From: a virus | Virus record (IMG/VR): IMGVR_UViG_3300047560_002518 | Span: 16,263 to 80,262 of that record | Direction: 5' to 3' (one strand) | Length of the DNA: 64,000 nucleotides | Shown: piece after piece, positions 48,365 through 64,000 of the stretch | Layout of the letters: every line of letters starts with the position of its first letter | Numbering within the stretch: position 1 is the stretch's first letter | The notes under the pieces: model-generated | Told to the model about the DNA's origin: nothing | The model's input: only the letters and a program-made list of their open reading frames with translations | Database searches by the model: none | Made by a program: the position numbers and the translations under genes

Positions 48365-49540
48365 TTAGCTAAATTTAACACTTGTATGTGTGATACCAAC
48401 ACGACCTAAGTAGTCAGCAGCGTTACCCAAAGATGACGCAGTGTTAGAAAGTTCAACATAACCATAACGTGTCATGAACGATACAACTGGTTCAAATGTT
48501 GATGGATCAAGTACAACACCTGATGACATCAATGGAATATATGGACAGTAGAATGCAGGTGCATCTGATTCTGAACCACCTTTGTAACCAATTAAGATTG
48601 AAGTATTGTCTGTAGCATAGCTGTTTACATATACTTTTAATGAGTTGTTTAAAGTACCAACGAATTTTGTATTAGTTGGAGCTTCAAATGTACCTTCAGT
48701 TGTACGAGCAAATGCTGAAGTTGTAGCAGATTGCAAAATAGTTAATGCAAATGGAGATACAACAGCATAGTTACCAGCACCACGACGTGTACGTTGTGCA
48801 ATCAAGTTGCTTACACGGTTGATTTGAACAGCTAATGCAGCGTGTTCGTCACCTACGAATGTAGCAGTACCTGATACTGCAGATTGATTGTATGTTTCAA
48901 CATCTGATCCAGCCAATGTTAATAATGAAGCGATAATTTCTTGATCGATCTCAGCGGTAATTTCTTGAGCCAAAGCAGCCATAATTTCTGCTTCAACGTC
49001 AATACCTTGTTGTGCTTGCGCATCTTGAGCAGATTCAAATGTCCAGCGAGCTGACAACTTACGTGTTTTAGCTTCAACTGTTTGTTTCAAGATTTGAATG
49101 CTCATTTTTTTACCAGCTTGTCCTTCTAAAGTTGCAGTTGACGTAGCTTTTGCTGCGTTTGCATTTTCATTACCTGAATATGCTTCTGCAATTTTGAATG
49201 GGCTTAACGCTTCTTCGCCTGCTAATACACCTGCTCCAGTGCTTGTGTCTGCATAACGAACGCGCAATGTGTGGATTTGACCAACAGGACCAGTCATCGG
49301 TTGTACCCCAACCAATTCGTTAGCGATAACGGTTGGCATAACACGACGGATTACTGGTAAAATCACGCGGTTTAAAGTTGCAACGTTGCCAGCAGATGTA
49401 GCACCAGCAGTTGGACTTTCCATCAAATACTTACGTGTATTTTCAAGTGTTACGCCCATTACTGATTTTTTTGTACCTTGCAAGCCTTCTAAAAGAGCTT
49501 GTTTTGTTTCTGCCCAACGGCCATTAAGTAGTTCTGACAT
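48365..49540 (-). CDS. gp23: Major capsid protein gp23
   Basis: 391 residues, shorter than T4 gp23 (521), as in compact marine relatives. It forms the head hexamers. AGNVATLNRVILPVIRRVMP, then IANELVGVQPMTGPVGQIHTLRVRY, is the core signature of the T4 capsid protein. An LME site at residues 39-41 before SPTAGATSAG fits maturation cleavage by gp21, as LTE does in T4. The start has AGGAGA upstream. Order gp20-21-22-23 is the classical head cluster. Confidence 0.97.
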   Translation of the reverse strand: MSELLNGRWAETKQALLEGLQGTKKSVMGVTLENTRKYLMESPTAGATSAGNVATLNRVILPVIRRVMPTVIANELVGVQPMTGPVGQIHTLRVRYADTSTGAGVLAGEEALSPFKIAEAYSGNENANAAKATSTATLEGQAGKKMSIQILKQTVEAKTRKLSARWTFESAQDAQAQQGIDVEAEIMAALAQEITAEIDQEIIASLLTLAGSDVETYNQSAVSGTATFVGDEHAALAVQINRVSNLIAQRTRRGAGNYAVVSPFALTILQSATTSAFARTTEGTFEAPTNTKFVGTLNNSLKVYVNSYATDNTSILIGYKGGSESDAPAFYCPYIPLMSSGVVLDPSTFEPVVSFMTRYGYVELSNTASSLGNAADYLGRVGITHTSVKFS

Positions 49541-49558
49541 TTAAATTCTCCTAAATTT

Positions 49559-50650
49559 TTATAGTCCAGCGAGGCGGCGGATATCAATAATGTTTGATTC
49601 ATCTTCGCTGCTACGGTTGGTGTTGGAAATTTTATTTCCGGTTATTTCTTTAGCTTCTACAAGAGCTTGTCTTTTTTGTGGTGCTTGTTTACCAGAAATT
49701 ACTGCTGGTAAATATTTTTCAAAGCTTTCATTAAGTTTTGAAGTTTTCACACTCGTCATCAATTCGCTCATGATATCACGTTGCTCTACGCTAAGAGGAG
49801 CTAATAACTCACTCATGATATCTTTTCTTTCTTGCGTTTCTTTCAACGCACGGATTTCTGCTTGTTTGCTTTCTAATATTTTTTCAGCTTTGATAACTGC
49901 TTTAGCAGCTTCATTGATGGCCAAATCTTTCATGTCTATGACTTTGAGCAATTTTGCAGTTTCCGATTTATCATTCAAGTAACTTGCTTGATATTCAGAA
50001 GCAAATGCTTCAAATAACTTACGACCAAAATCACTACGGCGAGCTGATTCAATGTCTTCTTTTAATGAAGTAATTTCAGCGTTTAAGGTTTGACCTACAA
50101 CACTTTCAACCATTGTAGCTGCACGTTGTACAAATTGTTGTTTTACTCGTTTGATTTCTTGACGACCTTCACGAATTAGACGAACTTTTGATTCGGCTAA
50201 ATCCTGTTTGTCTTTATAAAATTCTGTAATTTCTTGAGCCAAAGCTTCTACTACAAAATGTTCCAATGTGCTAAATTTATTTGCCATTGACATTTGATCT
50301 TCGTGCAATTCTTTAACTTCTTGTGCTAATTGACGTGTAACGAATTTGTTAACCGTGTTTGCACTTTCAGTCATTTTCTTAGCAAATTTAACTTTCATTT
50401 CTGCTAATTGCATACGATCTGCAACGAATTCGCTAAGTTCATCAGATAGTTGTTCAGAGATCATACGATCAACTGCTTCAACCATGATGTTTTTGTCATG
50501 CTCATACTTTTGAGCGAATTCTTCGCGTAGTTGTTGAGCAACAATTTCACGGTTTTCAACGATACGTTGTTCCCATGCTTGCTCAATAGACTCTTTGATC
50601 TCTTGCGAAACCACATTGTTTTCAAATAATGTTTTTAATGCATCCAACAT
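49559..50650 (-). CDS. gp22: Prohead scaffold protein gp22
   Basis: 363 residues, nearly all helical and highly charged with Glu/Lys/Gln, and dense heptad patterns (VKFAKKMTESANTVNKFVTR, ELHEDQMSMANKFSTLEHFV). T4 gp22 is the main core scaffold that is digested by gp21 after assembly. It has several (I/L)xE sites. Position between gp21 and gp23 agrees. Larger than T4 gp22 (269). Confidence 0.9.
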   Translation of the reverse strand: MLDALKTLFENNVVSQEIKESIEQAWEQRIVENREIVAQQLREEFAQKYEHDKNIMVEAVDRMISEQLSDELSEFVADRMQLAEMKVKFAKKMTESANTVNKFVTRQLAQEVKELHEDQMSMANKFSTLEHFVVEALAQEITEFYKDKQDLAESKVRLIREGRQEIKRVKQQFVQRAATMVESVVGQTLNAEITSLKEDIESARRSDFGRKLFEAFASEYQASYLNDKSETAKLLKVIDMKDLAINEAAKAVIKAEKILESKQAEIRALKETQERKDIMSELLAPLSVEQRDIMSELMTSVKTSKLNESFEKYLPAVISGKQAPQKRQALVEAKEITGNKISNTNRSSEDESNIIDIRRLAGL

Positions 50651-50664
50651 GTGATTCTCCTTTA

Positions 50665-51291
50665 CTATTGGAGTCCGTTTATTATATTTAATAAACTTTC
50701 TTTAAGGTATTTTTGCGCCTTTGGATCACCTCTTACCTCTTCCGCTAAACGAATTGAATTAAGACCACCTTTACTATTCATTAAGTGTTCGTAGATTGGG
50801 GTAGGATAAGCTCCTGGTGCACTTGGTTGAGCTACCATATCAACTGTGATAATCTCAAAATCTGATACTTCACCGGATCCGGAATCACTAACATTGCCAG
50901 ATCCGCGTGAGCTAACGCCAAGTTTCACACCACTTTCTAACATGGTTTTAATTAGTTGACCCATTGGTGTTGGTAAAATTTTAAGTTTACCATAACCATT
51001 TGGACCTTCCATCCACATGTTAGTTATCATATGTGAAACTCGGTCTAAATTAATTTTTAGATCATCTGGGTGATCTACTTCTCCTAGTACAGAATAACCA
51101 TTTTGAATTTGATCGTTGAGGGTCTTAACAGCCTTGCTAATCTCACTCACAGGGTACACACGTTGATTTGCGTTTCGGATGCCACCTTGTATACAGATAC
51201 CGCTCATATACAAGTTTTTTCCTTCCTTATCGTCAGATTCAACGATCATTTGCGCTTCGTTGAAGCTAAGGTTTTCTCGGAGATGTAACAT
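50665..51291 (-). CDS. gp21: Prohead core protease gp21
   Basis: 208 residues, size of T4 gp21 (212). Serine protease of the herpesvirus-type capsid maturation family. GEVDHPDD supplies the catalytic His at 74, and LGVSSRG at 124-130 the Ser; the pair matches T4 His85 and Ser140. QGGIRNANQRVYPVSEI near residue 35-51 is also typical. It cleaves prohead proteins after (I/L)xE. The start is 3 bases after the upstream gene. Confidence 0.95.
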   Translation of the reverse strand: MLHLRENLSFNEAQMIVESDDKEGKNLYMSGICIQGGIRNANQRVYPVSEISKAVKTLNDQIQNGYSVLGEVDHPDDLKINLDRVSHMITNMWMEGPNGYGKLKILPTPMGQLIKTMLESGVKLGVSSRGSGNVSDSGSGEVSDFEIITVDMVAQPSAPGAYPTPIYEHLMNSKGGLNSIRLAEEVRGDPKAQKYLKESLLNIINGLQ

Positions 51292-51294
51292 AAA

Positions 51295-52176
51295 TTACTT
51301 GCTGCCTCTTCCGCGGAATACACTTGTAGTGTTTTGTCCGTTGTCAGGACTTTTTCCTTTTGTTTCAGGACCATGACCTGGTTCTCTTTTCTTAAATGCG
51401 GTTTTTCCAGCTTTGCTGTCTGGACGATTTTGGATTGTGCCTAAGCCTGAAGTTAAATCGCCTGCTTTAGGGCTTAACAATCCACCTTGGGTGCCTTCAC
51501 CTTTAGATTCACCTGCAAATTTAGGTGCTACGCCGCCCATGTCGTTATATTTTGCTTTGTTAAAAATACTTTTGTTATTAACACCGTTGTCACCGTGTTT
51601 AGGTAATGCAACTTTGTTTACGTATTCAAACATGCTTTGGAATTCATTTTCTTCTTCACCGGCTCCAAATTCGTCGCCGCCCATGCCCATGTCGTCATCG
51701 CCCATGCCCATTTCGTCGCCGCCAAACATGTCGTCGTGTTCTGGTTCATCTTCTTCACCAGCTAATAATTGTTCAAATTCTGATTTTAATTCGTCTAATG
51801 CATCTTCAAGATCTAATACACGATTTTCTAAATCGCCATCTTCTTCATCACCAAATTCGTCATCACCGAATTCATCACCTTCTTCATCACCGAATTCATC
51901 GCCTTCTTTATCGCCAAATTCATCGTCTTCGCCTTCTTCGTCATCACCAAAGGTGTCGCCGCCAAAGTCATCATCGCCTTCATCTTCGTCATCACCAAAG
52001 CTATCGGTGTCGTCTTCTTCAGACTCTTCTTCTTCTTCAAATTCTTCTGCTAATAATTTTTCGTAAATCTCACGTGATTTACCTACTACGATATTGTGAA
52101 AAATATCTTTTGCTGCTTCATGATCTTCATTGATCAAAGCCTCAAGCATGGCTTCAAATTTGGTACGGTCAGTCAT
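51295..52176 (-). CDS. Acidic prohead core protein (gp68-like position)
   Basis: About 293 residues from the ATG at 52176 (MTDRTKFEAMLEAL), chosen because AGGAGA precedes it. A helical N-terminus of 50 residues is followed by a 130-residue extremely acidic, Asp/Glu/Gly-rich region with repeated GDEFGDEE units, then a helical coil (LENRVLDLEDALDELKSEFE) and a basic, disordered C-terminus. T4 has small core proteins gp67 and gp68 in this interval. The acidic repeats may mimic DNA charge inside the prohead; that is inference. Confidence 0.75.
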   Translation of the reverse strand: MTDRTKFEAMLEALINEDHEAAKDIFHNIVVGKSREIYEKLLAEEFEEEEESEEDDTDSFGDDEDEGDDDFGGDTFGDDEEGEDDEFGDKEGDEFGDEEGDEFGDDEFGDEEDGDLENRVLDLEDALDELKSEFEQLLAGEEDEPEHDDMFGGDEMGMGDDDMGMGGDEFGAGEEENEFQSMFEYVNKVALPKHGDNGVNNKSIFNKAKYNDMGGVAPKFAGESKGEGTQGGLLSPKAGDLTSGLGTIQNRPDSKAGKTAFKKREPGHGPETKGKSPDNGQNTTSVFRGRGSK

Positions 52177-52286
52177 GTTTCTCTCCTGTGATATCATTTT
52201 CTACAAGGCTGTCTTATATTTACACTACTTATAAAAAATATTGCAAATATGGCGCCAAAGCGATGGTTTTTGGCATGTTCTTTAGA

Positions 52287-52541
52287 CTATATACCAGTTG
52301 GCGCAGGTGTTGAATACATTGTATGAATAAAATTTAATTCAACTTCTTGTTCTAAGATATGAGCTTCACTACTCTTCCGAAGTTCATTAATCTGTCTAAG
52401 CGATAATCTTGTTTTTCTCGTATCAGAACGATGAACTAACGATTTATCGTTATCAGAATTATACCTCATATCACTGGCAACATGCTTTGAGTTTGGGTCG
52501 TTATAAAAAAGTTCTCTAAGTATCATAGTATTATTTATCAC
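52287..52541 (-). CDS. Small conserved protein between portal and prohead core genes
   Basis: 84 residues with an SDTRKTRLSLRQINELRKSSE segment that I recall as conserved in T4-like cyanophages right after gp20. It is basic and helical, with an Asn/Asp-rich N-terminal half. It may correspond to T4 gp67 (prohead core) by position. Start overlaps the portal stop by 4 bases (ATGA). Confidence 0.75.
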   Translation of the reverse strand: MINNTMILRELFYNDPNSKHVASDMRYNSDNDKSLVHRSDTRKTRLSLRQINELRKSSEAHILEQEVELNFIHTMYSTPAPTGI

Positions 52542-54283
52542 ATTGGAGGCGGTGCCATACCCGGTGCAGCAGGTGGCGGCATAGCTCCTGGCATACCGCC
52601 AGTCATTGGATCAGGTGGCATAACCCCTGGAGGTGCTGCTAAGTTACTTGCAGAGTTCATATCTTGTTCCATACCAGCAGCTGATAGCCCAGCTCCGCGT
52701 AATTCTCCTGCTGCATCTGTGTGAGTTGGCTGGCCTTTACCTTGTTCTTCACCCCATAGACGTTCATTTTCTGCCATTTCGTCTTCAGTTAATCCTAAAA
52801 ATCTTTTTAATGCAAAGCGTTTACTCATATAAGGCACTGCTTGAATAGTATTAAAGGTATTAATTCTTTCGGAATCTAAACTTGCTTGACGTGCGCTTGC
52901 GAAGTTCATTGGTGGGTTAAATTGTAATTCAAATAAATTTGAATCAATATTTGCACCGCGCGAGTACATGTACATTTTAAATTCATTTGTAAATACATCT
53001 GTGATTAAACTTTGCAATCTTTCGCAGTATTTGTTAAATCTTAACTCTTGAATATACGCTGTACCAACACGCCCGTCTTGAAAACTTGATTGACTATCGT
53101 CTGCACCAGTTGGTAAGTAGCTACTTGGAATACGTAAGCCACGGAATAACTTGTTTGTAAAGAATTTTAAGTCATCAATTTCACCTAAATTAGTTCCGCC
53201 CGGTAATGTTTCTACTTTAGAACCGCGTCCTTCTGCAGTTTGTGGGAAGAAATAGTCTTCATTTATACTTAAAGGATTGTAAGCACTGTCAATAACGTTC
53301 TGTCCACCGCCACTTTGGCTTGGAATTCTACGTTGATGTATTTCATTTTTAACTCTTTCTACAAAGGCCATAGCTAAATGGCTTGGCATATTACCAACAT
53401 CGATATGAAATACGCGTCTTTCTGGAGCTCTTTGTATACGATATATTAAAATAGCATCTTCTAATAGTTCTTTTTGCTTATAAACTTTAAAAATATTCTC
53501 TAATAAGCTGTTACCAAACGGATAATTGTTATCTAACCCTTCAGAAAGTGATAAATGAACAACATGTTCTGCATCAACTGCGTGTTCTGTATCGCCTAAA
53601 CCAAATCTTGAACCTGCTCCTGTATTAGGATATGGACCAGATGCACCATATTGAGCACCAGATGTTCCCATATAACCTGCACCTGATGTCATTCCACCGC
53701 CGGATTGTTTTGGATTTATGTTAGGTGTAATGCGTGTTGCTACGAGATTTTCAAAGTTAGGAGCTAAATCTTTAATGATATACTGTACAGGCTTCTTTCC
53801 TTCGCTTTCATTTACGATTACAGTTTCAATTTTACTAGGATCAATCCAGTTCCATTTTTGATTTTCAGGATCTCTAATGAAAAAAGCATCACCGTATTTG
53901 AATACATTTCGAACAATCCTAAAGATTTTAGTATCAAAATTCTGTAATTTGTTCCATTGTTGTAGATATTCACCTAAAATTCTAATTTCTGAATTAGTTC
54001 CTCGATTATTCCAACGAACTGTAAATGGACTTTTACCATCTTTTAACTTTTGTGTACAAAATTCAGCGAGAATATCAAGTGCTGCGTTGATTTCAGGATC
54101 ACTATCCATTACTTCGTACTGTTGATAACGATCAACACGATTAGGGCTTCCGGTATAAACATCTGGCAAGTAACTTGAATAATTTTTTCTTGCAGGTCCT
54201 GCTTTTGATGTTAAACCTAGTGTAGGAGTAGTATTAAGTTGTGTTGTACTGGATATTTCAGTGAAATGTTTACGCCAGGCCAT
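52538..54283 (-). CDS. gp20: Portal protein gp20
   Basis: 581 residues; T4 gp20 has 524. The portal ring is the entry for DNA and the start of head assembly. Typical segments: SDPEINAALDILAEFCTQ, FKYGDAFFIRDP, DAEHVVHLSLSEGLDNNYPF, a YRIQRAPERRVFHIDVGNMP motif and NKLFRGLRIPSSYLPTG. A C-terminal Met/Pro/Gly-rich tail is extra. It heads the head operon on the minus strand. Confidence 0.96.
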   Translation of the reverse strand: MAWRKHFTEISSTTQLNTTPTLGLTSKAGPARKNYSSYLPDVYTGSPNRVDRYQQYEVMDSDPEINAALDILAEFCTQKLKDGKSPFTVRWNNRGTNSEIRILGEYLQQWNKLQNFDTKIFRIVRNVFKYGDAFFIRDPENQKWNWIDPSKIETVIVNESEGKKPVQYIIKDLAPNFENLVATRITPNINPKQSGGGMTSGAGYMGTSGAQYGASGPYPNTGAGSRFGLGDTEHAVDAEHVVHLSLSEGLDNNYPFGNSLLENIFKVYKQKELLEDAILIYRIQRAPERRVFHIDVGNMPSHLAMAFVERVKNEIHQRRIPSQSGGGQNVIDSAYNPLSINEDYFFPQTAEGRGSKVETLPGGTNLGEIDDLKFFTNKLFRGLRIPSSYLPTGADDSQSSFQDGRVGTAYIQELRFNKYCERLQSLITDVFTNEFKMYMYSRGANIDSNLFELQFNPPMNFASARQASLDSERINTFNTIQAVPYMSKRFALKRFLGLTEDEMAENERLWGEEQGKGQPTHTDAAGELRGAGLSAAGMEQDMNSASNLAAPPGVMPPDPMTGGMPGAMPPPAAPGMAPPPM

Positions 54284-54333
54284 ATATTTCTCCTAATGTT
54301 TGTTCTTTTTGTTGTATATTCATTTTTTCATCC

Positions 54334-57300
54334 TTAATAGAACCTATTAGACATATTATTCGTAGCTTTCACTTGTTTTTGACTGCTTGAACTAATAGAT
54401 TCAGTATGTGAAGCCATTTGTGACATTGTTTTATTTAACTGTATCACTGCATCGTATATCTCTTTTAGGCTAACTGTATGAGATGTTTGTGATGATGCAG
54501 GTTTTGCATTTGATTGTTGCTCTGTATGCATTGGCTCCGGTGCATGTACCGGTGCAGGTTTGGTTGTTAGTTCATGTGTTGACGGTGCAACTTGATTTTG
54601 TGTCACATCTTTAATCTGAGCATGTGAACTTTTAACACTTTCAGCATCTTTTCTTGCATTAAACTCTTGCCAAGACTCTAAACCACCAATATGATGTGGT
54701 GCAGGTTTAGCAACACCTGCAGGTTCTGCCGATTTTGCTGATTGTCCTTTAGCTTTATCTTCATTAACTATAGATTTCCAAAGATCGTCATGTTTATACA
54801 AACCAGAATTTTTTATTTGTTCTCTATATATGTTTGCCGGATCATTTGGGTCTGCTTTTCTTGCTGCAATAGCCTCTGGTGTATTCTCTGCGGCAAGTTT
54901 TGCTGCATTTTCTTCCGGAGTTTCTTGTTTAACATTTTCATACCGTACATTTCCGCGTGTAAACAATGGACTATTGTCAGGTTTGAACATATCTCCTATT
55001 TTATCAAAGAATCCTTTTGATTCTGTTGGCTGATTTGCTTCAAGTTTTTGTTCATTTTCAACTGGAACTGGAGTTTCTTGATTAGGAGCTAATGTTTCTG
55101 ATACTTTTGCAGATTCATCTTGTAATTTTGCTGCAGTAACATCTTTATTAGTTGCACTTTCAGCAAATTTATCACCAAGACTGTTAAATGACGCAGAATA
55201 GTCTGGAGATTTAAATGTTTCCATTGCATTTGTTAGCTTTTCAGTATTATCCTCTGGTTTAACAACATTAGTAGAAACAGATTCTGTAAGTTTATCACTT
55301 AAATTGTTAAATGACTTATCTAAAGATGATTCTTTTTTCTCTTCTGGTTTTTCTGTGCTAATTTCTTTAAAGTCTAAACCGGTTGACAGTACATCTTTCT
55401 CTGCAGTTTTAATTTGAGCTTTTTCTTCAGGTGGTTTTTCTGTTTTCTTTGGTTCAACTATACGTCCTTCTTCTATATCACGTTGTTTTTTCTCTGCAGC
55501 TAATGTCAGTTCACGTTGTCTAGCGGCTGCAGCAGTTTCTGCATCATATTTTGGCTTAAACGCTGCATACTGTGCTTCAAATATTGGTAGATCATGAACT
55601 GCATCTTCATCATTTCTACCTTTTAGCTCGGCAATTTTGTCAATAAAGAATTTGTTTTCACCTTCTCTTACTTTACGTTTAATTGTTTCAGTAGATTGTA
55701 TACCAGTTTCTAACTCTTTCATTTCTGCATTAGTAAACTCATCGCGAGGATCTTTTAATCCAGCTTCGGCATCTTTTGATGTACCTGCAGGAGGTGGAGG
55801 TGTGTTTTCTGCAGTCTTAATAGTTGCGGTATCAGTAGTTGTAGGCGGTGCAGTAGCTGGTAGAGTTGATTTTGCAGGTTCAGTTGTTGGTGTTGCAGGT
55901 TCTGGTTCGCGCGAATAAGTAATTTCTGGTTTATTTCTTTCAGCTATAGCTGCTTGTTCTTTATTTGCGTTTTCTTGTTGTTTCTTTTTATCTTCTGCAG
56001 AGTTATCAGCTTTATTCACAATAGAACTTTTACTTTCTTTAATGTTTCCATCAACATGAAGACCAATATTTTTAAATATTTCCATTAATTGTTCATTAAA
56101 TTTATCTGTAGCTGGAATAAATGAAATGTTTTTCATTTTATCAGTAACTTCAGACAATCTTAAGACAACCTTTTCCATTTGGTCGTTAACACGATTAAAT
56201 ACACGTTCAATATCAGCAGCATTCGAAGTTGACATTGGTTTTATTTGATTAGCAATGTCTGTACCAAAAGAAGTTGGTAATGGAAAGTTCATTGACCCAG
56301 ATTTAGACGATGAAGATGTTGAAACTTGCTGAGATAATTGTCTAAACATATCCCTAGGGAACATTTTTTCAATAAATCTCATCATTTGATCTTCATTTGC
56401 AACTATTTCATTACCGTGAAGTAATGCAGGTTCACCTTTTGGATCAAAGTTTGTAAACATATCTTTAAATCCGCCGCCACCTGACAGGAATTTTTCAAAT
56501 TCCGGTGTACCACTGGCAAAAATGTGTGGCTCTTCCTTACCAAGAGGTTTAGTTAAATCATTTGGGTCTCGAATGTTGTTTGATTCGTTTTCTTTTAGTT
56601 TAGAACCTTCGTCAAACCGTTTGCGTAAAGAATCTGGAATTATTCCTTTGCCAATATCATTTAATTCATTTGTAGCAGCATTTTTTAAACCTTGTAGTTC
56701 TTGTTTCCAACCTTCTTGAGATCTATTTCTAAGAAGATTATCAAGTTGCCCATTTTTATTAAGTGCTTCAATTACTTTGCCACCGTCTCTAGCTAACTCA
56801 CCAAAGACTGAACTCAATCCGCCAGCTGCTCCTTTTAAATTACGATCAATTTCGTTAATAGTAGTTGCTAATTTAACTGCTGGATCAGTTATAGGTTCAC
56901 CAGTAGGCTTTTGTCCTGCAGCTTCTTTACGAGCTTCTTCTTGCATTAACTTAAGAGCTTCGCCGGCACCAACATGTGCCTCTGCCATTTTAGCTTCTAA
57001 TTGTTGAAGACCTGGCGTTTTTACATATTCGTCACCTAATCGATCTGGTACAGAGCCCGCCGGGCCGCCAATCATACCTAATGTTGATACAGGTTTCTTT
57101 TCTAATCCTTCAACATGTTTAGTAATAGCAGTGTCAAACAAATTCTTTAGATTTGCAACATCTTCTGGACTTTTAGCGTTACGAATAGCGTTTCCTACTC
57201 TAACTGCCTCAGCTAACGACCCAGTTGCACCTAATGTTGCGGCAGCTTTAGTACCTTCATCTGTTCGAATTGCACCAGTAGCTTGTTCAACGATAACAGT

Positions 57301-58158
57301 TTTCATTGCTGGACTTGCATTAGATAACTGTGGTAGTATTGCATCTAATGCTTGGCGTTGCATTGGATCTAATGAACGCATCATTGCTTGAATTCGTTTA
57401 TCAGATTTTATTTGTTGCAGTTGTTCTAATTGTTCTTTTTTACCAATACCTGTTATACGTGAATTTTCGTCAATTGATTCAATTAATTTTTCAGTTGCGT
57501 CAATTTGTCGTTGCCGCATTAATGGATCATTAGCATTAAATCCAGGTTGATTCATACTTGCAACATACATTGCTTTATTAATCAGTTCTGCACTCATGCC
57601 TAATTTTTCAAGTTGAGCAATAATTGGTCTCTGATGCAACTGCTCATTCATTTCTAAGAAATTTTTCTGAGCTCGATTAACAGTTGAACCTAATGCACCT
57701 AATTCAGCAGCACCTTTTTTAACCATTTCGGTGTATTCGTCTTGGGTCATACGAGCACCTTTGATTAAAGAATCAAATTCTGCTATGTTATTTCCAAATG
57801 TTGCACCGTACTCGCTTGCTTTGTTTAAGTTTGAATTAGTTGTAAGGACAGCATCACTAATCTTTTTACCAGCGTCGCCAAGAATTTTTCCAAATGCTCC
57901 ACCATAGTCGGATAATGCTTTATTAAAATTAGTTAATGCGTCTTTAGTAGTTGCAGTACCTGAACCAAGTTTCTCAAGTGCATCCCCAAGTGTGCTTGCT
58001 CCATCGGCAGCCGTGTTAAGTCCTTTCTTAAGCGAATTAAAAGGTGTAAGAGAGAATCCGCCACCACCTCCGCCACCACCTCCGGTATTAGAGCCTTTTA
58101 ATGTTTTATTAAGAGCATCAATCGATTCTCGTAGTCGTACTGTATCTTCATCACTCAT
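54334..58158 (-). CDS. Tape measure protein candidate (gp29-like role)
   Basis: 1274 residues. After a polyglycine stretch it has long amphipathic helices (NKALSDYGGAFGKILGDAGK, QRQIDATEKLIESIDENSR). A GEPALLHGNEIVANEDQMM segment near residue 590 is like the LHGxE motif common in phage tape measure proteins. The middle-to-C-terminal part is Pro/Thr/Glu/Lys-rich with few fold signals. T4 gp29 is 590 residues, so this would suit a longer tail if the whole length counted. It stands next to gp26, a tail hub gene, which supports the call. Confidence 0.7.
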   Translation of the reverse strand: MSDEDTVRLRESIDALNKTLKGSNTGGGGGGGGGFSLTPFNSLKKGLNTAADGASTLGDALEKLGSGTATTKDALTNFNKALSDYGGAFGKILGDAGKKISDAVLTTNSNLNKASEYGATFGNNIAEFDSLIKGARMTQDEYTEMVKKGAAELGALGSTVNRAQKNFLEMNEQLHQRPIIAQLEKLGMSAELINKAMYVASMNQPGFNANDPLMRQRQIDATEKLIESIDENSRITGIGKKEQLEQLQQIKSDKRIQAMMRSLDPMQRQALDAILPQLSNASPAMKTVIVEQATGAIRTDEGTKAAATLGATGSLAEAVRVGNAIRNAKSPEDVANLKNLFDTAITKHVEGLEKKPVSTLGMIGGPAGSVPDRLGDEYVKTPGLQQLEAKMAEAHVGAGEALKLMQEEARKEAAGQKPTGEPITDPAVKLATTINEIDRNLKGAAGGLSSVFGELARDGGKVIEALNKNGQLDNLLRNRSQEGWKQELQGLKNAATNELNDIGKGIIPDSLRKRFDEGSKLKENESNNIRDPNDLTKPLGKEEPHIFASGTPEFEKFLSGGGGFKDMFTNFDPKGEPALLHGNEIVANEDQMMRFIEKMFPRDMFRQLSQQVSTSSSSKSGSMNFPLPTSFGTDIANQIKPMSTSNAADIERVFNRVNDQMEKVVLRLSEVTDKMKNISFIPATDKFNEQLMEIFKNIGLHVDGNIKESKSSIVNKADNSAEDKKKQQENANKEQAAIAERNKPEITYSREPEPATPTTEPAKSTLPATAPPTTTDTATIKTAENTPPPPAGTSKDAEAGLKDPRDEFTNAEMKELETGIQSTETIKRKVREGENKFFIDKIAELKGRNDEDAVHDLPIFEAQYAAFKPKYDAETAAAARQRELTLAAEKKQRDIEEGRIVEPKKTEKPPEEKAQIKTAEKDVLSTGLDFKEISTEKPEEKKESSLDKSFNNLSDKLTESVSTNVVKPEDNTEKLTNAMETFKSPDYSASFNSLGDKFAESATNKDVTAAKLQDESAKVSETLAPNQETPVPVENEQKLEANQPTESKGFFDKIGDMFKPDNSPLFTRGNVRYENVKQETPEENAAKLAAENTPEAIAARKADPNDPANIYREQIKNSGLYKHDDLWKSIVNEDKAKGQSAKSAEPAGVAKPAPHHIGGLESWQEFNARKDAESVKSSHAQIKDVTQNQVAPSTHELTTKPAPVHAPEPMHTEQQSNAKPASSQTSHTVSLKEIYDAVIQLNKTMSQMASHTESISSSSQKQVKATNNMSNRFY

Positions 58159-58183
58159 TTTAAAAATCCTAAAAAATTATGTA

Positions 58184-58191
58184 TATAAATA
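58184..58191 (+). promoter_or_regulatory. TATAAATA late promoter for gp26
   Basis: Exact TATAAATA on the plus strand, 33 bases before the gp26 ATG at 58224. It faces the minus-strand copy at 58205-58212, only 13 bases away. Confidence 0.75.
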
Positions 58192-58204
58192 TGGTTTATA
58201 CTTA

Positions 58205-58212
58205 TATTTATA
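58205..58212 (-). promoter_or_regulatory. TATAAATA late promoter for the tape measure gene
   Basis: Exact TATAAATA on the minus strand, 46 bases before the tape measure ATG. With the plus-strand copy it forms a pair whose transcripts cross over the same 20 bases. Confidence 0.75.
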
Positions 58213-58223
58213 CGGAGTTATTC

Positions 58224-59054
58224 ATGGAACAAAACCCTTTACAAGAATTTTTTAGACAACCAAAAATTTATATTTCATTGCCATCAAAAGGAATTTACAA
58301 TGAACTTGGATCAATTAGTGGAGATCCAAGTCATTTACCAGTGTACGGTATGACAGGAATGGATGAAATTATGATGAAAACACCTGATGCACTATTAAAT
58401 GGTGAAAGCACAGTGTTATTAATCGAAAGTTGCTGCCCATCAATTAAAGATGCATGGCAAGTAAATGCATTGGATACAGATTTACTGTTAACTGCTATTC
58501 GAATTGCAACATTTGGAAATAATTTAGAAATTATGCATACATGTTCAAACCCAGAATGTGAATCTGAAAACGAATATGACGTTGACTTAGGTACAGTTAT
58601 TGATCATTTCAATAAATGCAAATATGAAAATCAAATAAAAATTGGCGGGTTAACTATTAGACTGCAACCGTTAACATATCGCCAAACTACTGATTTTGCA
58701 TTAAAGAATTTTCAATTACAACAAAAATTATCAAATTCTAAATCATTAGATGACGAAAAACAAAAAGAAATAGTTGCTCAATTATTTAACGATCTAAGAT
58801 CTATTCAAAATGACATTTATTTTGAAAGCATTGAATCAATTGATACTGGAAAAGTCGTAGTAACTGATAGAGATCATATTCGCGATTGGTTATCAAATTC
58901 TGAAAAAGATGTATTTAAGAAAATTCGTAATACATTTGATGTTAATAAAGCCAATTGGAAAATTCCAAATGTAAATGTAAAATGTGATAGTTGTGGAAAA
59001 GAAGCTTCATTATCAATTGATTTAGATCAAACTAATTTTTTCGATCCCGCCTAA
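58224..59054 (+). CDS. gp26: Baseplate hub protein gp26 (tail-assembly chaperone-like), zero-frame product
   Basis: 276 residues from ATG 58224, chosen because GGAG lies 7 bases upstream; the frame is open further back to 58179. QPKIYISLPSKGIYNEL at the start, then VYGMTGMDEIMMKTPDALLNGEST, resembles cyanophage gp26. Two cysteine pairs (CSNPEC; CDSCG) could bind zinc. T4 gp26 helps form the central hub of the baseplate. The gene ends at a T TTT TTC heptamer followed by an open -1 frame of 77 codons, so it probably also makes a longer product. Confidence 0.82.
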   Translation: MEQNPLQEFFRQPKIYISLPSKGIYNELGSISGDPSHLPVYGMTGMDEIMMKTPDALLNGESTVLLIESCCPSIKDAWQVNALDTDLLLTAIRIATFGNNLEIMHTCSNPECESENEYDVDLGTVIDHFNKCKYENQIKIGGLTIRLQPLTYRQTTDFALKNFQLQQKLSNSKSLDDEKQKEIVAQLFNDLRSIQNDIYFESIESIDTGKVVVTDRDHIRDWLSNSEKDVFKKIRNTFDVNKANWKIPNVNVKCDSCGKEASLSIDLDQTNFFDPA

Positions 59055-59275
59055 TTGGGTTATCTCCTTCTGATATTAGAGAATATCTAATTAGGCTTGA
59101 TAATAGTGCAAAACGTATTAAGCATGAATTATTTAGAATTTGCTGGTATATGAGAGGTGGTGTTTCGATACATCAGCTGATGCATGTGTTGAGTCACGAA
59201 GACCGATCAATTATGTACGATATTATCAAAGATAACATTGAATTAACAAAAATATCTAAAATGCCATTGTTATAA
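59036..59275 (+). CDS. -1 frame extension of gp26 (gp51-like C-terminal part)
   Basis: From T TTT TTC at 59036-59042, slipping back one base gives CGA TCC CGC and then an open frame to TAA 59273-59275. The peptide (LIRLDNSAKRIKHELFRICW, then YMRGGVSIHQLMHVLSHEDR) is helical and reads like real protein; I recall similar small ORFs after gp26 in cyanophages. It has no credible start of its own. The zero-frame stop follows 9 bases after the heptamer. The fusion would be 350 residues. This mirrors the G/GT tail-assembly chaperone frameshift of lambda. Confidence 0.75.
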   Translation, partial: FFRSRLIGLSPSDIREYLIRLDNSAKRIKHELFRICWYMRGGVSIHQLMHVLSHEDRSIMYDIIKDNIELTKISKMPLL

Positions 59276-60019
59276 TTAGTAAATTAAAAATCCATTCTTA
59301 TCTCTATGTAACCCTTGTGGAGTATACTCATAATCTGGATCAGCAATTCTTGGAGTCATGTAATCATTTTGTGAATTTGGTTTTGTAGGATCAACTGGTG
59401 TAGGCGCAGGGGTTGCTGTTTGAGTAGCCTGTGGTGCTGGTTGATCAGGCACTTGTTTTTTATCTTGATTAACAGCTTCTTGAATTGTATTATGTAACCA
59501 ATCAATAGCAATTGTTCCGTATCTACCCATGTCTTTAAGAATACTTACTGATATAAGTGATGCAAGTGCCTCTGTACCTTCTTTGGTACGTAATTGCTGC
59601 ATTAAATATATTCTCGCACCTTGGCTTAATATTTTGTACATACTAGCAATTAGTGGACCTACAACTGGGATAATACTAATAAATCTTATGAATACTACAT
59701 CTGTTAGAAATGAACCAACTGCAGCTACTAAGCCAACTCCAAGCTTGGCCATCATCTCACCTGCTTTTGCAGATCGATATTCATTAAATTGTTGTTGTGT
59801 TGCGACCCCTGATTTCAATGCTTCATCTGCTTGATTCATTTGAGTAAGATAATCAATTACAGGAGATAATAACGATGCTAATCCTAACCAACCAAGAGCT
59901 GTTTTAAAAGAGTTAAAGCCAGCTTTAACTCTAGATCCTCCATTAATATTAATAGTGGGCGGAGCATCTGCTTCATTTAAATGTGTGTGGCGTTTAGCTG
60001 TTATCTCTCTGACTTTCAT
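59276..60019 (-). CDS. Hydrophobic helical protein with capsid-targeting-like N-terminus
   Basis: 247 residues. It starts MKVREITAKRHTHLNEADAPP, with LNE at residues 14-16 as a candidate gp21 site. Two or more hydrophobic segments follow (WLGLASLLSPVIDYL; LGVGLVAAVGSFL; FISIIPVVGPLIASMYKIL), enough for membrane insertion. The C-terminal 70 residues are Pro/Gln/Thr-rich. Its stop touches the end of the gp26 extension. An ejected membrane-active protein is possible but unproven. An AAGGA lies upstream of the ATG. Confidence 0.7.
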   Translation of the reverse strand: MKVREITAKRHTHLNEADAPPTININGGSRVKAGFNSFKTALGWLGLASLLSPVIDYLTQMNQADEALKSGVATQQQFNEYRSAKAGEMMAKLGVGLVAAVGSFLTDVVFIRFISIIPVVGPLIASMYKILSQGARIYLMQQLRTKEGTEALASLISVSILKDMGRYGTIAIDWLHNTIQEAVNQDKKQVPDQPAPQATQTATPAPTPVDPTKPNSQNDYMTPRIADPDYEYTPQGLHRDKNGFLIY

Positions 60020-60092
60020 TTATAATCCTTTTATTCCTTTCAGAATAATCCTTAAATATTAACGATATTTATTAAAAAAAATAAAACATATT

Positions 60093-60114
60093 AAAAGATG
60101 AACTAACGTTCATC
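60093..60114 (-). terminator. Intrinsic terminator ending the non-coding transcript
   Basis: GATGAAC and GTTCATC form a perfect 7-bp stem with a 4-base loop, followed on the minus strand by TTTTAATATGTTTTATTTTTTTT. It closes the hairpin-rich stretch and precedes the 59276-60019 gene. Confidence 0.7.
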
Positions 60115-60199
60115 TATATTTCGCTTTCGCTCAATATATTTTTTCTCTTAAAAGCAATAATGAAAAAAAATAATATTTTAATTATGAAATAATATTTTA

Positions 60200-60660
60200 A
60201 ATTAATTTAGGGAGACACATCACTTTGGAAGTTAAGGTGCACCCTGTAACCCCAGGTGCAAAGATATCTCCCCATCGTCTCGGTATATCGCAGTAAGAAT
60301 TTGTGACTGTAGACTCTTGTTATCGGCTACCTCCAAACCGTCACTTACAGGTATTTTTAAGATATAACTTTCAGGTGCATTGTATATCATTACAAGATTG
60401 TTACCATTACTGGTATTCTACAGATTTACGGCTACGCATCTGTACCCAATGCGTATACAACCTTTGCATTGACCTCACTGCGGCTCGCCACCATTCCGAT
60501 TAAACAAAGCATTGACGTCATGGGACGTTGCTTTTGGCATCCTCCTTCAGAGGGTAGTGTTTAAAAGCCGTTGCACAATCAACGGTTTGAGCAGCGGTTC
60601 TTATTCTAGAACTTAACTCAGCAGTATTACAGTCTGGCCTGCCAACCTTATGTTAGTGTA
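60200..60660 (-). ncRNA. Large structured non-coding RNA candidate
   Basis: No convincing gene lies between 60020 and 60697, and 60215-60650 is visibly richer in G and C than its AT-rich surroundings. Perfect inverted repeats occur at 60238-60260 (TGCACC/GGTGCA plus CTG/CAG), 60402-60415 (TACCA/TGGTA), 60380-60395, 60433-60455 (TACGCAT/ATGCGTA), 60506-60534 (AAAGC/GCTTT and ACGTC/GACGT) and 60568-60585 (CCGTTG/CAACGG). The loop of the 60433 hairpin also pairs with 60419-60423 (TACAG with CTGTA), giving a pseudoknot. I infer minus-strand transcription from a CATAAATA motif at 60670 and a terminator at 60093. I did not recognise tmRNA or RNase P signatures. Confidence 0.6.
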
Positions 60661-60669
60661 TTGTGAAAA

Positions 60670-60677
60670 TATTTATG
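60670..60677 (-). promoter_or_regulatory. CATAAATA motif upstream of the ncRNA candidate
   Basis: CATAAATA on the minus strand differs by one base from the T4 late core and lies about 10 bases before the structured region, just after the RNase H stop. It sits beside a T-run at 60680-60688. Confidence 0.4.
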
Positions 60678-60697
60678 AAGTTTTTTTTACAAGGTGA

Positions 60698-61126
60698 TTA
60701 AATCTGGTTGCAATTACGAGCAGCAGATTCAGCTAATGTATTAGCACGTTCGTTTCCTGGATTACCAGAATGTCCTTTTACCCAAGCCCATTCAATTGTA
60801 TGAGGAGCTGCAGCAATTTCTAATTGAAACCATAAGTCTTTATTCAAGTAGTCTTTGCGATTAGTTTTTTTCCAATTAGGAAACCATTGGGTAAAGCCGT
60901 CGATGAGATATTTTGAATCTGAATATAATTTAACATTACATGGTCTTTTTAAACGCGAAAGTGCTTCAATTGCAGCTTGCATTTCCATGCGATTATTAGT
61001 AGTTAGTGGATCATGTCCACTAAATTCTTTAATTACATCTTTATATTGCATGGTAATTCCCCATCCGCCTTTACCTGGATTTGGTACACATGCGCCGTCT
61101 GTATAAATTATTACGAGTTCTTCCAT
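60698..61126 (-). CDS. rnhA: Ribonuclease HI (bacterial type)
   Basis: 142 residues, a cellular-type RNase HI rather than the T4 Rnh (5'-nuclease family). It degrades RNA in RNA-DNA hybrids and removes primers. IYTDGACVPNPGKGG supplies D10, NNRMEM E48, LYSDSKYLIDG D70, and VKGHSGNPGNERAN a His at 119. The fourth catalytic position (D134 in E. coli) is Asn at 129. The basic handle WFPNWKKTNRKDY is present. A GATAAATA lies 42 bases upstream. Confidence 0.92.
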   Translation of the reverse strand: MEELVIIYTDGACVPNPGKGGWGITMQYKDVIKEFSGHDPLTTNNRMEMQAAIEALSRLKRPCNVKLYSDSKYLIDGFTQWFPNWKKTNRKDYLNKDLWFQLEIAAAPHTIEWAWVKGHSGNPGNERANTLAESAARNCNQI

Positions 61127-61167
61127 AGTGTTTTGTTAGATATATAGGTTTAGTATTTTTAAACAAA

Positions 61168-61175
61168 TATTTATC
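61168..61175 (-). promoter_or_regulatory. GATAAATA motif upstream of RNase HI
   Basis: GATAAATA on the minus strand, 42 bases before the RNase HI ATG, inside the gap 61127-61278 that separates it from the plus-strand HNH-like gene. Confidence 0.45.
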
Positions 61176-61278
61176 TGAACAACTTCTCCACCTTGTTAGA
61201 AATGATTATACAGTCATTAGTATCAAAAGTCAACTGCTATTATTGCCAAAGGTAAATATACACAATATAGGAACACAT

Positions 61279-62277
61279 ATGAGAGTTATAGATATTATGT
61301 TAAATGAAGAGGTAAAAGGATATGCAGTAGCAGTTGAAAATGCTCACGCTTGGATTGAACGACTTAAACAATTTATGAACCCCAACGATCCTCAACGACC
61401 ATTTGTATTAAGAAAAAATGTTAATGTTGTATATGAGTTAACAGCTGACAAATATGATGCTAATCAACGTAACGAGCAAGAGATAATATTAGAAGCATAT
61501 GACTTAATTGCTGCCGCAATTCAAACAGGTGATCATTTGCAAATGTCAGCAGCAACAACAAGACTTAGTCGAAAACTTAAAGAATATTCTAATCGAGAAG
61601 TTACTAGAATTAGAAAAGAGTCAGGAGTTCGTACAACAAAGAAAGCAGACCGAATTTCATTACCTGATCAAATAGCAAATGTAATTGATTTTATTAATTC
61701 TCCAAATAATCGACGATTAGATAATCGATATACGTATGAGAGATCATTTATGTCGCTTGCAGATAAACTGACATTAGAAAAATGGATTAAAGATACTTAT
61801 AAGACCGATAAACTAAAACTACAAGCACTTGTTAATTGGTTGAAAGATAAAGAAACTCGAACAGCAGCACCAAAAGAACTGGAAAACACTCACGGTGAAT
61901 TGCCAGAGGATTTTGATCCACAAAATCCTCTGCATGTGTATTGGAAAAATATAGTAGATACAACAAGATGGAGAGGCGATAATGTGGAAAATAGTAAAAC
62001 ACAGTATACAATGTCTTATAAAGAGCTATGGCAGATTATAACTGAACAAGATTGGAAGTGCTATTTAACTAATATTCCAATGTTAGGGATTACAAGCCAT
62101 GAAAATTCTATAAGCATAGATAGAAAAGATTCAACTGTAGGTTATATTTCTGGTAATGTTGCATTCTGTTGTTATCGAGCAAATATAATAAAAGGAACGT
62201 TAACAGTTAACGAATTAGTTGCAGTGTGTAAACAGATTCTAATACATAAAAATATAATTTCAAAGGAATTAAAATGA
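61279..62277 (+). CDS. HNH-like nuclease paralogue 1 with capsid-targeting-like N-terminus
   Basis: About 332 residues from ATG 61279, chosen because AGGA lies 6 bases upstream; the frame is open to 61243. It starts MRVIDIMLNEE, with LNE at residues 8-10. The long middle is helical and charged. The C-terminal 65 residues (CYLTNIPMLGI, then SISIDRKDSTVGYISGNVAF and CCYRANIIKGTL) match the HNH beta-beta-alpha pattern of the Ser-Ile-Asp-Arg type. It overlaps the next gene by 4 bases, and the two C-termini are clearly related. Confidence 0.7.
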   Translation: MRVIDIMLNEEVKGYAVAVENAHAWIERLKQFMNPNDPQRPFVLRKNVNVVYELTADKYDANQRNEQEIILEAYDLIAAAIQTGDHLQMSAATTRLSRKLKEYSNREVTRIRKESGVRTTKKADRISLPDQIANVIDFINSPNNRRLDNRYTYERSFMSLADKLTLEKWIKDTYKTDKLKLQALVNWLKDKETRTAAPKELENTHGELPEDFDPQNPLHVYWKNIVDTTRWRGDNVENSKTQYTMSYKELWQIITEQDWKCYLTNIPMLGITSHENSISIDRKDSTVGYISGNVAFCCYRANIIKGTLTVNELVAVCKQILIHKNIISKELK

Positions 62278-63218
62278 AAGCAACCGAAATTTTAGAACAG
62301 CTAGATAATCGAGGTAGGTACCCAGGTGAAGCAGCAACAAATGGACTAACAATACACACCAGAGTAGAAAATATAATGAATCAATCAAAAAAATTGCTGA
62401 ATTTATATAGACCGTATCTAGTTCGTGGAGAAATTAAAAATTTGGTACAAATATATAAAATTGCTTCTAAAGAATTTAAAAACCCAACAGATTTAGATTA
62501 TGCAACAATATTAGTAACATCAAACGAACTTAGACCGTATGTTAAACGACTTGCTAGTAAAATGAAAGAAGCCATAAAAAATCCATCACCTGAAGAGTTT
62601 AAATTAGCTTCTATAAGTAATCATAAAGTGTTTGGAGGATGGCCAATTGAAGATATTAAATATGATTTGAATAGTATAGCAAGAACTCGACCTGATTTAA
62701 GCGATGCAGTAAATAACTTAATACAAGATGTTGAGGGGTATAATCAAAATAAGAGGCTTCGTGGTGAAGTAACATTTAATACAGATTATTCTGATAACAT
62801 TGAAGATGCAGTAACTCGACGATATAATAATTCAAGAGTAAGAAACAAAAAAGGAAAATTAACAAATCCTAAACGAAAAAAAATAACTATATCTACTAAT
62901 TATGCAATTGAAATTGCTGCAAATCAACATTACACATGTGCGTTATCAGGAATTCCAATGACAGCAGTTCAAGGTCCAAGTCAACTTAGTATTGATCGAA
63001 TTAGCTCTAAACATGGATATCATCGCGGCAATGTTCAATTTTTATTAGCTCGAGTTAATATGATGAAAGGTAATTTATCTGAGAATAAATTTTTAGATTG
63101 GTGTTTGCAGATATACAAAAACAATTCTAATATACCGGTTACTAACTCTGATTTAGCTGCGGCACTTGCTAGACCAGTATTGTCTAATAACAATACTACT
63201 TCAAACACAGATCCTTAA
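62274..63218 (+). CDS. HNH-like nuclease paralogue 2 with capsid-targeting-like N-terminus
   Basis: 314 residues, starting MKATEILEQLDNRG with ILE at residues 6-8. The C-terminal domain (CALSGIPMTAVQG, LSIDRISSKHGYHRGNVQFL, VNMMKGNLSENKFLDW) lines up with paralogue 1 over the whole HNH-like region, while the N-terminal halves differ. The tandem pair probably arose by duplication. There is no NUMOD DNA-binding motif as in the homing enzyme at 22413. The 3' end overlaps the opposing nuclease gene by 23 bases. Confidence 0.7.
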   Translation: MKATEILEQLDNRGRYPGEAATNGLTIHTRVENIMNQSKKLLNLYRPYLVRGEIKNLVQIYKIASKEFKNPTDLDYATILVTSNELRPYVKRLASKMKEAIKNPSPEEFKLASISNHKVFGGWPIEDIKYDLNSIARTRPDLSDAVNNLIQDVEGYNQNKRLRGEVTFNTDYSDNIEDAVTRRYNNSRVRNKKGKLTNPKRKKITISTNYAIEIAANQHYTCALSGIPMTAVQGPSQLSIDRISSKHGYHRGNVQFLLARVNMMKGNLSENKFLDWCLQIYKNNSNIPVTNSDLAAALARPVLSNNNTTSNTDP

Positions 63219-63714
63219 CAACATCTTTATTTTCACTCCAAAAAGAATCGTAATCAGTAAACACCCATTTACCGTTCTTTTTGGAGTAATAGTCTACACT
63301 TTTTTGTAGTTTAAATTTTTTGATATGTTTATGTTCAAACGCAACATAAGAGCCTTTGCGATTAAACTTCATCATAATGATATTAAAGTCATCCTTATCA
63401 GCAACTTCTAAAGTTTGCTCAATCCAAGTATCTAAAATCTTAATTTCACCTGCAGTAAACAATTGATGAAATGGAAAATCAGCATAAGATTTACATTCGG
63501 CATTAAAGTGTTTCCAATTTAATGGCGGTACAATATCACCTTTCATAGCACGAATTTGTCCTTCATGTAAGAACTCTTTACGTACTGCATTCTTACCTCC
63601 GATATAAGCACCACTTCCTGGAACTCTCATAAAGTGTTCTTTAAAGAGACTAGTTAAATGTTTTGATACGGTGTTTTCCCAACTGTTTCCTTTTGTTTTA
63701 GATTTGCTTGGCAT
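63196..63714 (-). CDS. PD-(D/E)XK nuclease-like protein
   Basis: 172 residues. KGNSWENTVSKHL near the N-terminus holds a Glu at 13, MKGDIVPP an Asp at 60, and FNAECKS Glu73 and Lys75, giving the E...D...ExK set of Holliday-junction resolvase or restriction-type nucleases. Basic residues are abundant. Homologues occur in other T4-like marine phages as I recall. Its role is unclear: recombination intermediate cleavage is plausible. Confidence 0.75.
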   Translation of the reverse strand: MPSKSKTKGNSWENTVSKHLTSLFKEHFMRVPGSGAYIGGKNAVRKEFLHEGQIRAMKGDIVPPLNWKHFNAECKSYADFPFHQLFTAGEIKILDTWIEQTLEVADKDDFNIIMMKFNRKGSYVAFEHKHIKKFKLQKSVDYYSKKNGKWVFTDYDSFWSENKDVVKDLCLK

Positions 63715-63723
63715 CTTAATCCT

Positions 63724-64000
63724 TTAATTTTTATGTCTAATTTTTAATTTATTTATTGGTTCAAGTATGCCAGCTTCTTCTTTTTGAGCACGTTCTTTAA
63801 TCATAGCAATTGCTCGTTTACTTGGAATTTTTGGAGAGAAATGTGTGTATCTCCAATCTTGTACCACTAATCTTTGATCGGTACAAAGATTAGTTAGTTG
63901 TATTCCAATCTTTTTTAACAACATTAATTCTTTTCGTAAATCAACACAAGTTTGTGAATTTTGTATTGTAACCCAGTTATTATGAGCTATAAAATAGTCA
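63724..64000 (-). CDS. 3' end of a gene cut by the right window edge, unknown
   Basis: A frame that stays open from the right edge to the stop at 63726-63724. A Met at 63924 could be taken as a start, but it lies mid-frame with no ribosome-binding site, and the frame continues upstream (FIAHNNWVTIQ) to the edge, so I treat the gene as partial. The visible 91 residues contain DQRLVVQDWRYTHFSPK and a basic C-terminus (KLKIRHKN). No family recognised. Confidence 0.6.
   Translation of the reverse strand, partial: DYFIAHNNWVTIQNSQTCVDLRKELMLLKKIGIQLTNLCTDQRLVVQDWRYTHFSPKIPSKRAIAMIKERAQKEEAGILEPINKLKIRHKN

Follow-up and report, generated by a model that had tools for sequence, protein, structure and literature searches.

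A large structured RNA beside a phage RNase H gene appears to be a diverged relative of the RF01718 family

Introduction

What does a ~680-base gap between two minus-strand genes of a giant phage encode? The gap lies within a stretch of 64,000 nucleotides, here called the window, and a first-pass annotation made from the letters alone had proposed that it holds a candidate new structured RNA, transcribed from the minus strand and comparable in size and setting to GOLLD and ROOL. Those two RNAs are, according to the available text of PMC12286853, RNA-only cages of unknown function. A second point of reference is Polynucleobacter-1 (RF01718), for which the table entry in the accessible part of Weinberg et al. 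(2010; PMC2864571) gives Burkholderiales and fresh water or estuary as its setting, rates it "probably" an RNA and "probably" cis-regulatory, and marks its status as a riboswitch as ambiguous.

Results

A non-coding gap framed by transcription signals

The gap separates the minus-strand genes at 60698-61126 and 59276-60019, and its largest frames span 52 aa on the minus strand and 66 aa on the plus strand, in keeping with the non-coding character first ascribed to it. Its description as GC-richer holds toward one side, with a GC content of 0.39-0.47 inside as against 0.19 just downstream, but on the opposite flank the RNase H gene stands at 0.34-0.39, so that the contrast is one-sided. Both of the framing signals that had been pointed out are present, namely a promoter-like CATAAATA and a hairpin followed by a T-tract. 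Motifs of the ATAAATA type are enriched upstream of the phage's ORFs: no 8-mer is more enriched upstream of window ORFs than GATAAATA, which has 7 of its 9 occurrences there, and ATAAATA is found in 13 of 49 upstream stretches, with 23 occurrences in all, while exact TATAAATA is not over-represented (4 observed vs 11 expected). CATAAATA is therefore read as what we take to be a T4-type late promoter, and the RNA is placed at about 60663-60091, where both ends are estimates and the resulting length of ~570 nt lies close to the 560 bases first suggested. A promoter-like AATAAATA, separate from that of the RNA, resides between the terminator and the 59276-60019 gene. The parts of the locus, all on the minus strand, are as follows.

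60698-61126: RNase H gene, upstream of the RNA (phrog_531, E 1.3e-48)
60670-60677: late-promoter-like CATAAATA, read from the sequence
60091-60663: predicted structured RNA gene, estimated transcript ~570 nt; 73-81% DNA identity in 18 loci, 128-pair fold
60636-60654: conserved 5′ motif AACATAAGGTTGGCAGGCC, common to the bridge copies L171, L173, L072 and L096
60490-60652: 5′ domain, recognized by the bridge profile as well as the clade-free covariance model R1
60536-60562: AAACACTACCC-hairpin-GGATGCC, which alignments make the counterpart of CACTATCC..GGACG in RF01718-type copies
60427-60487: copy-specific stretch, shorter and of different sequence in the 8 other distinct homologues; holds a hairpin singled out by the first-pass annotation
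60263-60273: putative twin box 1 counterpart GGGGAGATATC, our reading of the alignment to the bridge copies, lacking strict identity with box 2
60236-60258: hairpin between the box counterparts, from alignment and fold
60212-60226: putative twin box 2 counterpart AAAGTGATGTGTCTC, our reading of the alignment
60092-60151: 3′ stem with the terminator region, hit by both the RF01718-type phage-RNA profile and the bridge profile
60116-60137: stem ATATT-GAGCGAAAGCGAA-ATAT before the terminator, with compensated changes in 2 of its pairs
60090-60114: intrinsic terminator GATGAAC-GTTA-GTTCATC plus T-tract, from the sequence; a similar hairpin occurs at the same place in relatives
59276-60019: downstream gene, whose product starts MKVREI; similar starts in relatives

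No Rfam family reaches its cut-off in the window, including the GOLLD, ROOL, tmRNA, RNase P and intron models for which a check had been proposed, and at E<=10 only chance-level matches are returned. ARAGORN finds no tRNA or tmRNA gene within the 64 kb. Self-splicing introns, RNase P and tmRNA were rejected as candidates on the same Rfam and ARAGORN results.

Close relatives preserve a fold rather than the 52-aa reading frame

Folding of the single sequence does not distinguish the gap, as the minimum free energy is no better than that of 100 shuffles on either strand (z -0.97, with 17/100 as good or better, and z -1.21, with 11/100). Comparison is more telling. An RNase H search found 22 viral loci, among them a 372,173-base contig (L003) whose sequence agrees with window positions 48179-64000 at 100% identity and which is thus treated as the window's own phage. 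At 18 further loci (L004-L021) the region lies directly after RNase H with 73-81% identity, and these reduce to 8 distinct sequences besides that of the window; the three most distant RNase H loci (L022-L024) show no match to the RNA region. Two exact-pattern scans returned 20 stretches each and one extra contig (L035). BLASTN of the region or its relatives against cultured phages and plasmids yielded short stretches at E >=0.2, or nothing, and the protein of the downstream gene has no relative beyond its own contig among viral contigs.

The consensus fold of these nine sequences comprises 128 pairs, with 97.1% of cells paired and 11 compensated pairs. Slid versions of the fold contain 0-4 compensated pairs and 0/500 shuffles reach 11, although the shuffle null ignores relatedness and, with nine related sequences, the fold test alone amounts to moderate evidence. 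In the other 8 distinct homologues, indels of 1 and 2 bases interrupt the 52-aa frame, and variable columns fall 12/17/12 over the codon positions, that is, with no third-position bias. A protein-coding region, a decayed gene or chance hairpins would fit the two short ORFs and the unexceptional single-sequence fold, but the broken 52-aa frame, the even codon positions and the compensatory pairing make such an origin highly improbable. One structural detail of the first-pass annotation is lost in the comparison: the likely pseudoknot it drew between a hairpin at 60433-60455 and 60419-60423 falls in the copy-specific stretch, which is replaced in the 8 other distinct homologues. The case for a structured RNA is one from comparison, not from the hairpins originally listed, and it supports the large minus-strand RNA gene that had been proposed.

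Related RNAs beside a baseplate-hub gene

A wider set of relatives emerges from an alignment of the baseplate-hub gene, in which the best 80 of 336 relatives were kept; 62 of these 80 are distant loci (L061-L122). Both neighbors of the gap were recognized by script in 40 of the 62, and the gap measures 460-570 bases in 36 of those 40. Its upstream neighbor is in most cases an endonuclease of the GIY-YIG type (L072, the one tested, matches Pfam SegE_GIY-YIG), and its downstream neighbor starts MK(V/I)xEI or similar. An RNA profile matches all 48 distant loci that extend at least 2 kb beyond the hub, 41 of them at the typical distance. The profile had been built with sequences from 29 of these loci, and the other 19, which had contributed none, all match as well.

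The 38 distinct hub-linked RNAs range from 429 to 543 nt. An alignment of 33 of them, from which one incomplete sequence and four near relatives were left out, gives 61 consensus pairs, of which 39 are compensated, with G-U pairs among the variants, and the covariation term contributes -12.57 of the -47.91 kcal/mol. Under a home-made, R-scape-like null that preserves the tree, 15 column pairs reach E<0.05; 13 of these can pair in 70% of sequences or more, and the other 2 do not. TAAATA is found within 120 nt upstream in 0/33 of these distant copies, and the late promoter is not general to copies of the RNA.

A guide RNA for the neighboring HNH genes was considered and dropped because the nuclease beside it changes from phage to phage (RNase H, GIY-YIG) whereas the RNA persists. 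Proteins resembling HNH or endonuclease VII are encoded at 61243-62277 (+) and 62274-63218 (+) of the window, at 3832-4878 of L004 and at 3161-4981 of L014. The proteins of window 61243, L004 and L014 have in common a short N-terminus, HNIGTHM(R/K)V.DI, followed by different bodies, and these starts resemble the T4 capsid-targeting sequence. Relatives of the downstream gene keep the MK(V/I)xEI-like start but otherwise look divergent, a pattern that would be expected of an internal head protein.

A superfamily that includes RF01718

RF01718 scores above its cut-off of 37 bits in four of the five distant loci tried, with 67-109 bits across the ~140 bases at the start of the gap; the fifth, L072, has no match above cut-off. 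The 141-nt family thus covers only the 5′ third of an RNA of ~430-570 nt. The window copy itself has no match to RF01718, either at the gathering cut-off or at E<=10. A connection is provided by four bridge copies (L171, on the window's own contig, L173, L072 and L096), in which the window-type 5′ motif is combined with an RF01718-like body or 3′ domain. A profile of these bridge copies matches the window copy over positions 1-163 (L003 5475-5637, 32.6 bits, E 1.4e-8) and again at its 3′ end (E 5e-4). Across 1.68 Mb of loci, it also matches the window clade over its full length at up to 53.6 bits (L014, E 6e-15) and RF01718-type RNAs over their 3′ half at up to 55.8 bits (L066). The window-clade profile, in turn, finds L171 at E 1.9e-5, and an RF01718-type profile (nhmmer) reaches the 3′ end of the window copy (L003 5976-6035, 18.6 bits, E 2e-4), where terminator-like hairpins that are perhaps partly generic may contribute to the profile matches.

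Model R1 is a covariance model to which the window clade supplied no sequence. In 9/9 loci of that clade its top-ranked hit is the RNA, at E 1.5e-4 to 0.11, with the best noise of that search at E 0.86. The model aligns the window copy (L003 5475-5629) over model positions 1-170 of 170 at 18.1 bits and E 0.011. The mixed 5′ covariance model kept 11 pairs only and therefore leans on sequence. Judged by this ancestry test, the window RNA is a diverged relative of RF01718 and not a formal member, and it very probably represents a structured RNA of a superfamily that contains this family. Both have the core CACTAYCC-hairpin-GGAYG, and the window's contig carries a copy above cut-off, but the window copy falls below it, the RNA is ~430-570 rather than 141 nt long, and its clade lacks the strict twin boxes described below. 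Of the idea of a candidate new structured RNA, then, the structured RNA stands and the novelty gives way to known relatives.

Twin boxes in the 3′ domain

Within the 3′ domain, the sequences that follow RACTC and RATCT flank a hairpin and are near-identical within an RNA while differing between RNAs. In 18 distinct box pairs, which are not independent and include one with a single mismatch, the two boxes agree on average at 5.94 of 6 positions; mismatched pairs agree at 3.47, and 0/10,000 permutations reach the observed agreement. In a 610-column alignment, L089, L105 and L117 share an otherwise-rare residue only at two matching box positions, and at three box positions L085 differs from every other sequence, in each of the two boxes. 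A scan recovers the box pair in 63/74 RNAs; the remaining 11 are off pattern and include 4/4 of the window-clade sequences tested. That scan kept the most identical pair among several matches, which inflates the identity, a bias from which the column test is free. No conserved complement of the boxes was found inside the RNA. Because the boxes are near-identical within an RNA and change together, the simplest reading is that one shared trans partner reads both; this co-evolving partner would most simply be a dimeric protein, or else a trans nucleic acid. For the window copy, which lacks strict box identity, the partner may have changed.

The coupled boxes also bear on the comparison with known cages. 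A GOLLD- or ROOL-type RNA, forming a homo-oligomeric nanocage without a protein partner, or a ribosome-associated RNA, would share with the window RNA a similar size, a phage setting, an elaborate conserved fold and a function that is likewise unknown. The absence of a sequence match to GOLLD and ROOL, which the first-pass annotation had already remarked on, agrees with the Rfam result, and the window has no tRNA genes; the RNA differs further in having several copies per phage and in being common to chromosomal cassettes. As the twin boxes suggest an external partner, such a cage is a rather unlikely identity for this RNA.

Copies in phages and on Polynucleobacter chromosomes

RF01718 exceeds its cut-off in 10/15 phage records, including the window's 372-kb contig, where a second place carries a copy at 353,228-353,372 (61.1 bits) and a weaker match lies at 272,537-272,684 (28.7 bits, E 3.6e-5). 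The window's phage has three copies of the RNA, counting that of the window. Copies L170 and L172 have sigma70-like promoters. The family is also above cut-off in 19/186 Polynucleobacter-group genomes, with 1-2 copies each, and in 0/14 controls. A pattern from the 5′ domain run against the genome collection returned 12 stretches, two of which (L126, L133) are taken as chance, and a pattern from the 3′ domain returned nothing. The RNA also occurs in metagenome bins named Nitrospira, Methylococcaceae, Cryomorphaceae and Methylococcales (L124, L129, L131 and L141), for which mis-binning is possible.

On the chromosomes the RNA is part of a small cassette that also contains a DUF6641 gene, ORF256, ORF262 and a tyrosine recombinase, assigned to phrog_216 in one case. 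The integrase, ORF256 and ORF262 are each present in 8/9 regions and DUF6641 in 9/9; an AAA ATPase is confirmed in the one cassette tested. Upstream of the RNA, (A/C/T)TAAATA occurs in 26/26 copies, these being the ones among 30 loci that BLAST aligned, against a shuffled mean of 2.5. A lysine/proline-rich protein whose start, in our reading, resembles the T4 capsid-targeting sequence (described in the available text of PMC3012670) has a BLAST match in 3/9 regions. With an integrase and a conserved small gene set, these cassettes look like phage satellites as far as gene content goes. Set beside them by description only, a jumbo-phage satellite reported in 2025 is integrated after tmRNA and is larger than usual satellites, according to the accessible portion of PMC12595487. 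DUF6641 was not found in 10 phage records, in a search without a match anywhere, nor in cultured phages.

Two further arrangements were seen. In L177-L180, L183 and L185, a variable ORF, possibly a defense or cargo gene, lies between the RNA and the integrase, with a Pfam match in 0/6 tried. At L161/L184, in the Polynucleobacter group, a bridge-type copy resides beside a DUF6641 gene (48% identity), and no integrase cassette lies within 17 kb.

Sharing between phage and chromosomal elements could also reflect a DNA-level site for packaging, replication or recombination, common to helper and satellite, and the twin direct repeats, which flank an inverted repeat and change together, might be viewed in that light. 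Helices over a 450-nt region covary as RNA, however, with G-U variants, the window copy lies between a promoter-like signal and a terminator, and the boxes have diverged among copies of one phage, all of which render a DNA site improbable.

Probably related RNAs in cultured jumbo phages

The gap beside the hub gene measures 766-803 bases in phages CBB, Serratia BF and Erwinia Kaldavass, with no or tiny annotated genes, and 364 bases at the same place in RaK2. That of CBB matches 41 records, 31 of them at 4-6 places (counted as BLAST pieces), and CBB, BF and Kaldavass have five loci each when pieces <65 bases are left out. Sixteen CBB-type copies align over ~650 bases, for an RNA of ~650-780 nt, although at least two of the 16 rows (BF_335 and RAK_279) begin inside the RNA, where the trimming motif matched. 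Four column pairs covary at E<=0.05, 3 of them pairable, and five more at E<=0.5, 4 of them pairable. The boxes read TCGTCAG twice in 12 copies, CCGTCAG twice in 3 and CTTCAA twice in RaK2, and the copies have sigma70-like or -35/-10-like signals. In L187, L190, L191 and other CBB-type copies, a terminator-like hairpin and U-tract fall between the boxes, so that transcription would have to read through them to reach box 2.

Sequence similarity to the freshwater RNAs is weak: profile hits of the latter in CBB-type phages reach E 0.013 at best and 0.4 next, both inside the RNA, and the reverse search, other profiles and model R1 reveal nothing that links the two. The hub loci have no credible Rfam match at E<=1. 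What the two share is the place beside the hub gene, a CCGTTGT...ACAACC core and twin boxes around a GC hairpin, and these features together with the weak profile hits indicate that the CBB-type RNA, which differs in its greater length, its weak sequence link and its absence from Rfam, is probably related. It was found in the course of this work; among the literature matches listed, no title reports such an RNA in jumbo phages, which does not prove that no report exists. Two other large gaps with no or tiny annotated genes occupy the corresponding place beside hub and recombination genes, at 5732-6747 of L186 (Sinorhizobium phage Phosso) and 5043-6519 of L189 (Pseudomonas phage Paride). These are possible further RNAs, for which none of four profiles rises above noise.

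The surroundings of the CBB copies speak to how the RNA might act. Because four of the five lie just upstream of a same-strand gene, a cis-acting leader is the main rival to an RNA that acts in trans. The RNA would then reside in the 5′ UTR of the next gene as a regulatory leader or attenuator, with the hairpin between the boxes of several CBB-type copies as its switch. The hairpin and U-tract suit that role, Polynucleobacter-1 was itself rated "probably" cis-regulatory in the table noted above (Weinberg et al., 2010), and the next gene is on the strand of the RNA in the window and in 3/8 chromosomal cassettes (one cargo ORF, two integrases). In the window, however, the terminator and the separate AATAAATA intervene between RNA and gene, the next ORF is convergent in the other five of those eight cassettes, at the end of the CBB hub copy a terminator faces an opposite-strand gene, and the genes next to the CBB copies have no common name in their annotation. 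On balance, a leader is an unlikely account of this RNA.

Discussion

The explanation that best accommodates these observations, to which we assign a probability of roughly 0.57, is a ~570-nt structured RNA that acts in trans, a copy of the superfamily described here, and that serves as a scaffold in assembly, packaging or protection. The gap in the window would encode a free-standing RNA, a mode of action that is suggested because a terminator and a separate promoter-like motif lie in the window and the next ORF is convergent in most of the chromosomal cassettes. In jumbo phages related to that of the window, one copy stays next to the baseplate-hub gene, and several of these phages have more copies elsewhere; integrase-bearing cassettes on Polynucleobacter chromosomes carry the same RNA. 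Computation shows the homology, the conservation of fold and position, the promoter-like and terminator signals of the window copy and the three copies in its phage, whereas the work of the RNA as a scaffold is an inference. Bound to the partner that reads both boxes, the RNA could form an RNA-protein complex with a part in assembling, packaging or protecting the phage, and the chromosomal elements may carry the RNA so as to exploit the same phage machinery. Such a role is proposed because of the capsid-targeting-like leaders nearby, the late-promoter-like signal and the sharing with satellite-like elements; taken separately, the part of the proposal that concerns scaffolding and assembly is tentative.

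A more specific version, somewhat more speculative still, is that of an addressable scaffold RNA superfamily that extends from freshwater to enterobacterial jumbo phages and their satellites. The duplicated box would be an address that can be exchanged as a unit, and a phage protein dimer that reads it would direct cargo, be it genome, protein or satellite, to the virion. Should packaging turn out to be the function, the nearest known precedent is phi29 pRNA, likened here by description only, and a role in packaging or satellite transfer would make this a new RNA component of phage assembly.

With these relationships, an orphan RNA of 141 nt described in 2010 becomes an RNA of ~500 nt with a likely home in jumbo phages and satellite-like chromosomal elements. 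Cultured jumbo phages appear to have an RNA of this kind as well, among them Escherichia phage Sharanji, for which E. coli K-12 MG1655 is the listed host, so that the function of the RNA should be directly testable, and the coupled twin boxes offer a concrete handle for finding the partner. In the window phage's own contig, the bridge copy L171 (267.5-278.5 kb) is followed by genes that, from their sequence, read as NAMPT-like, NMNAT-like and macro-domain genes.
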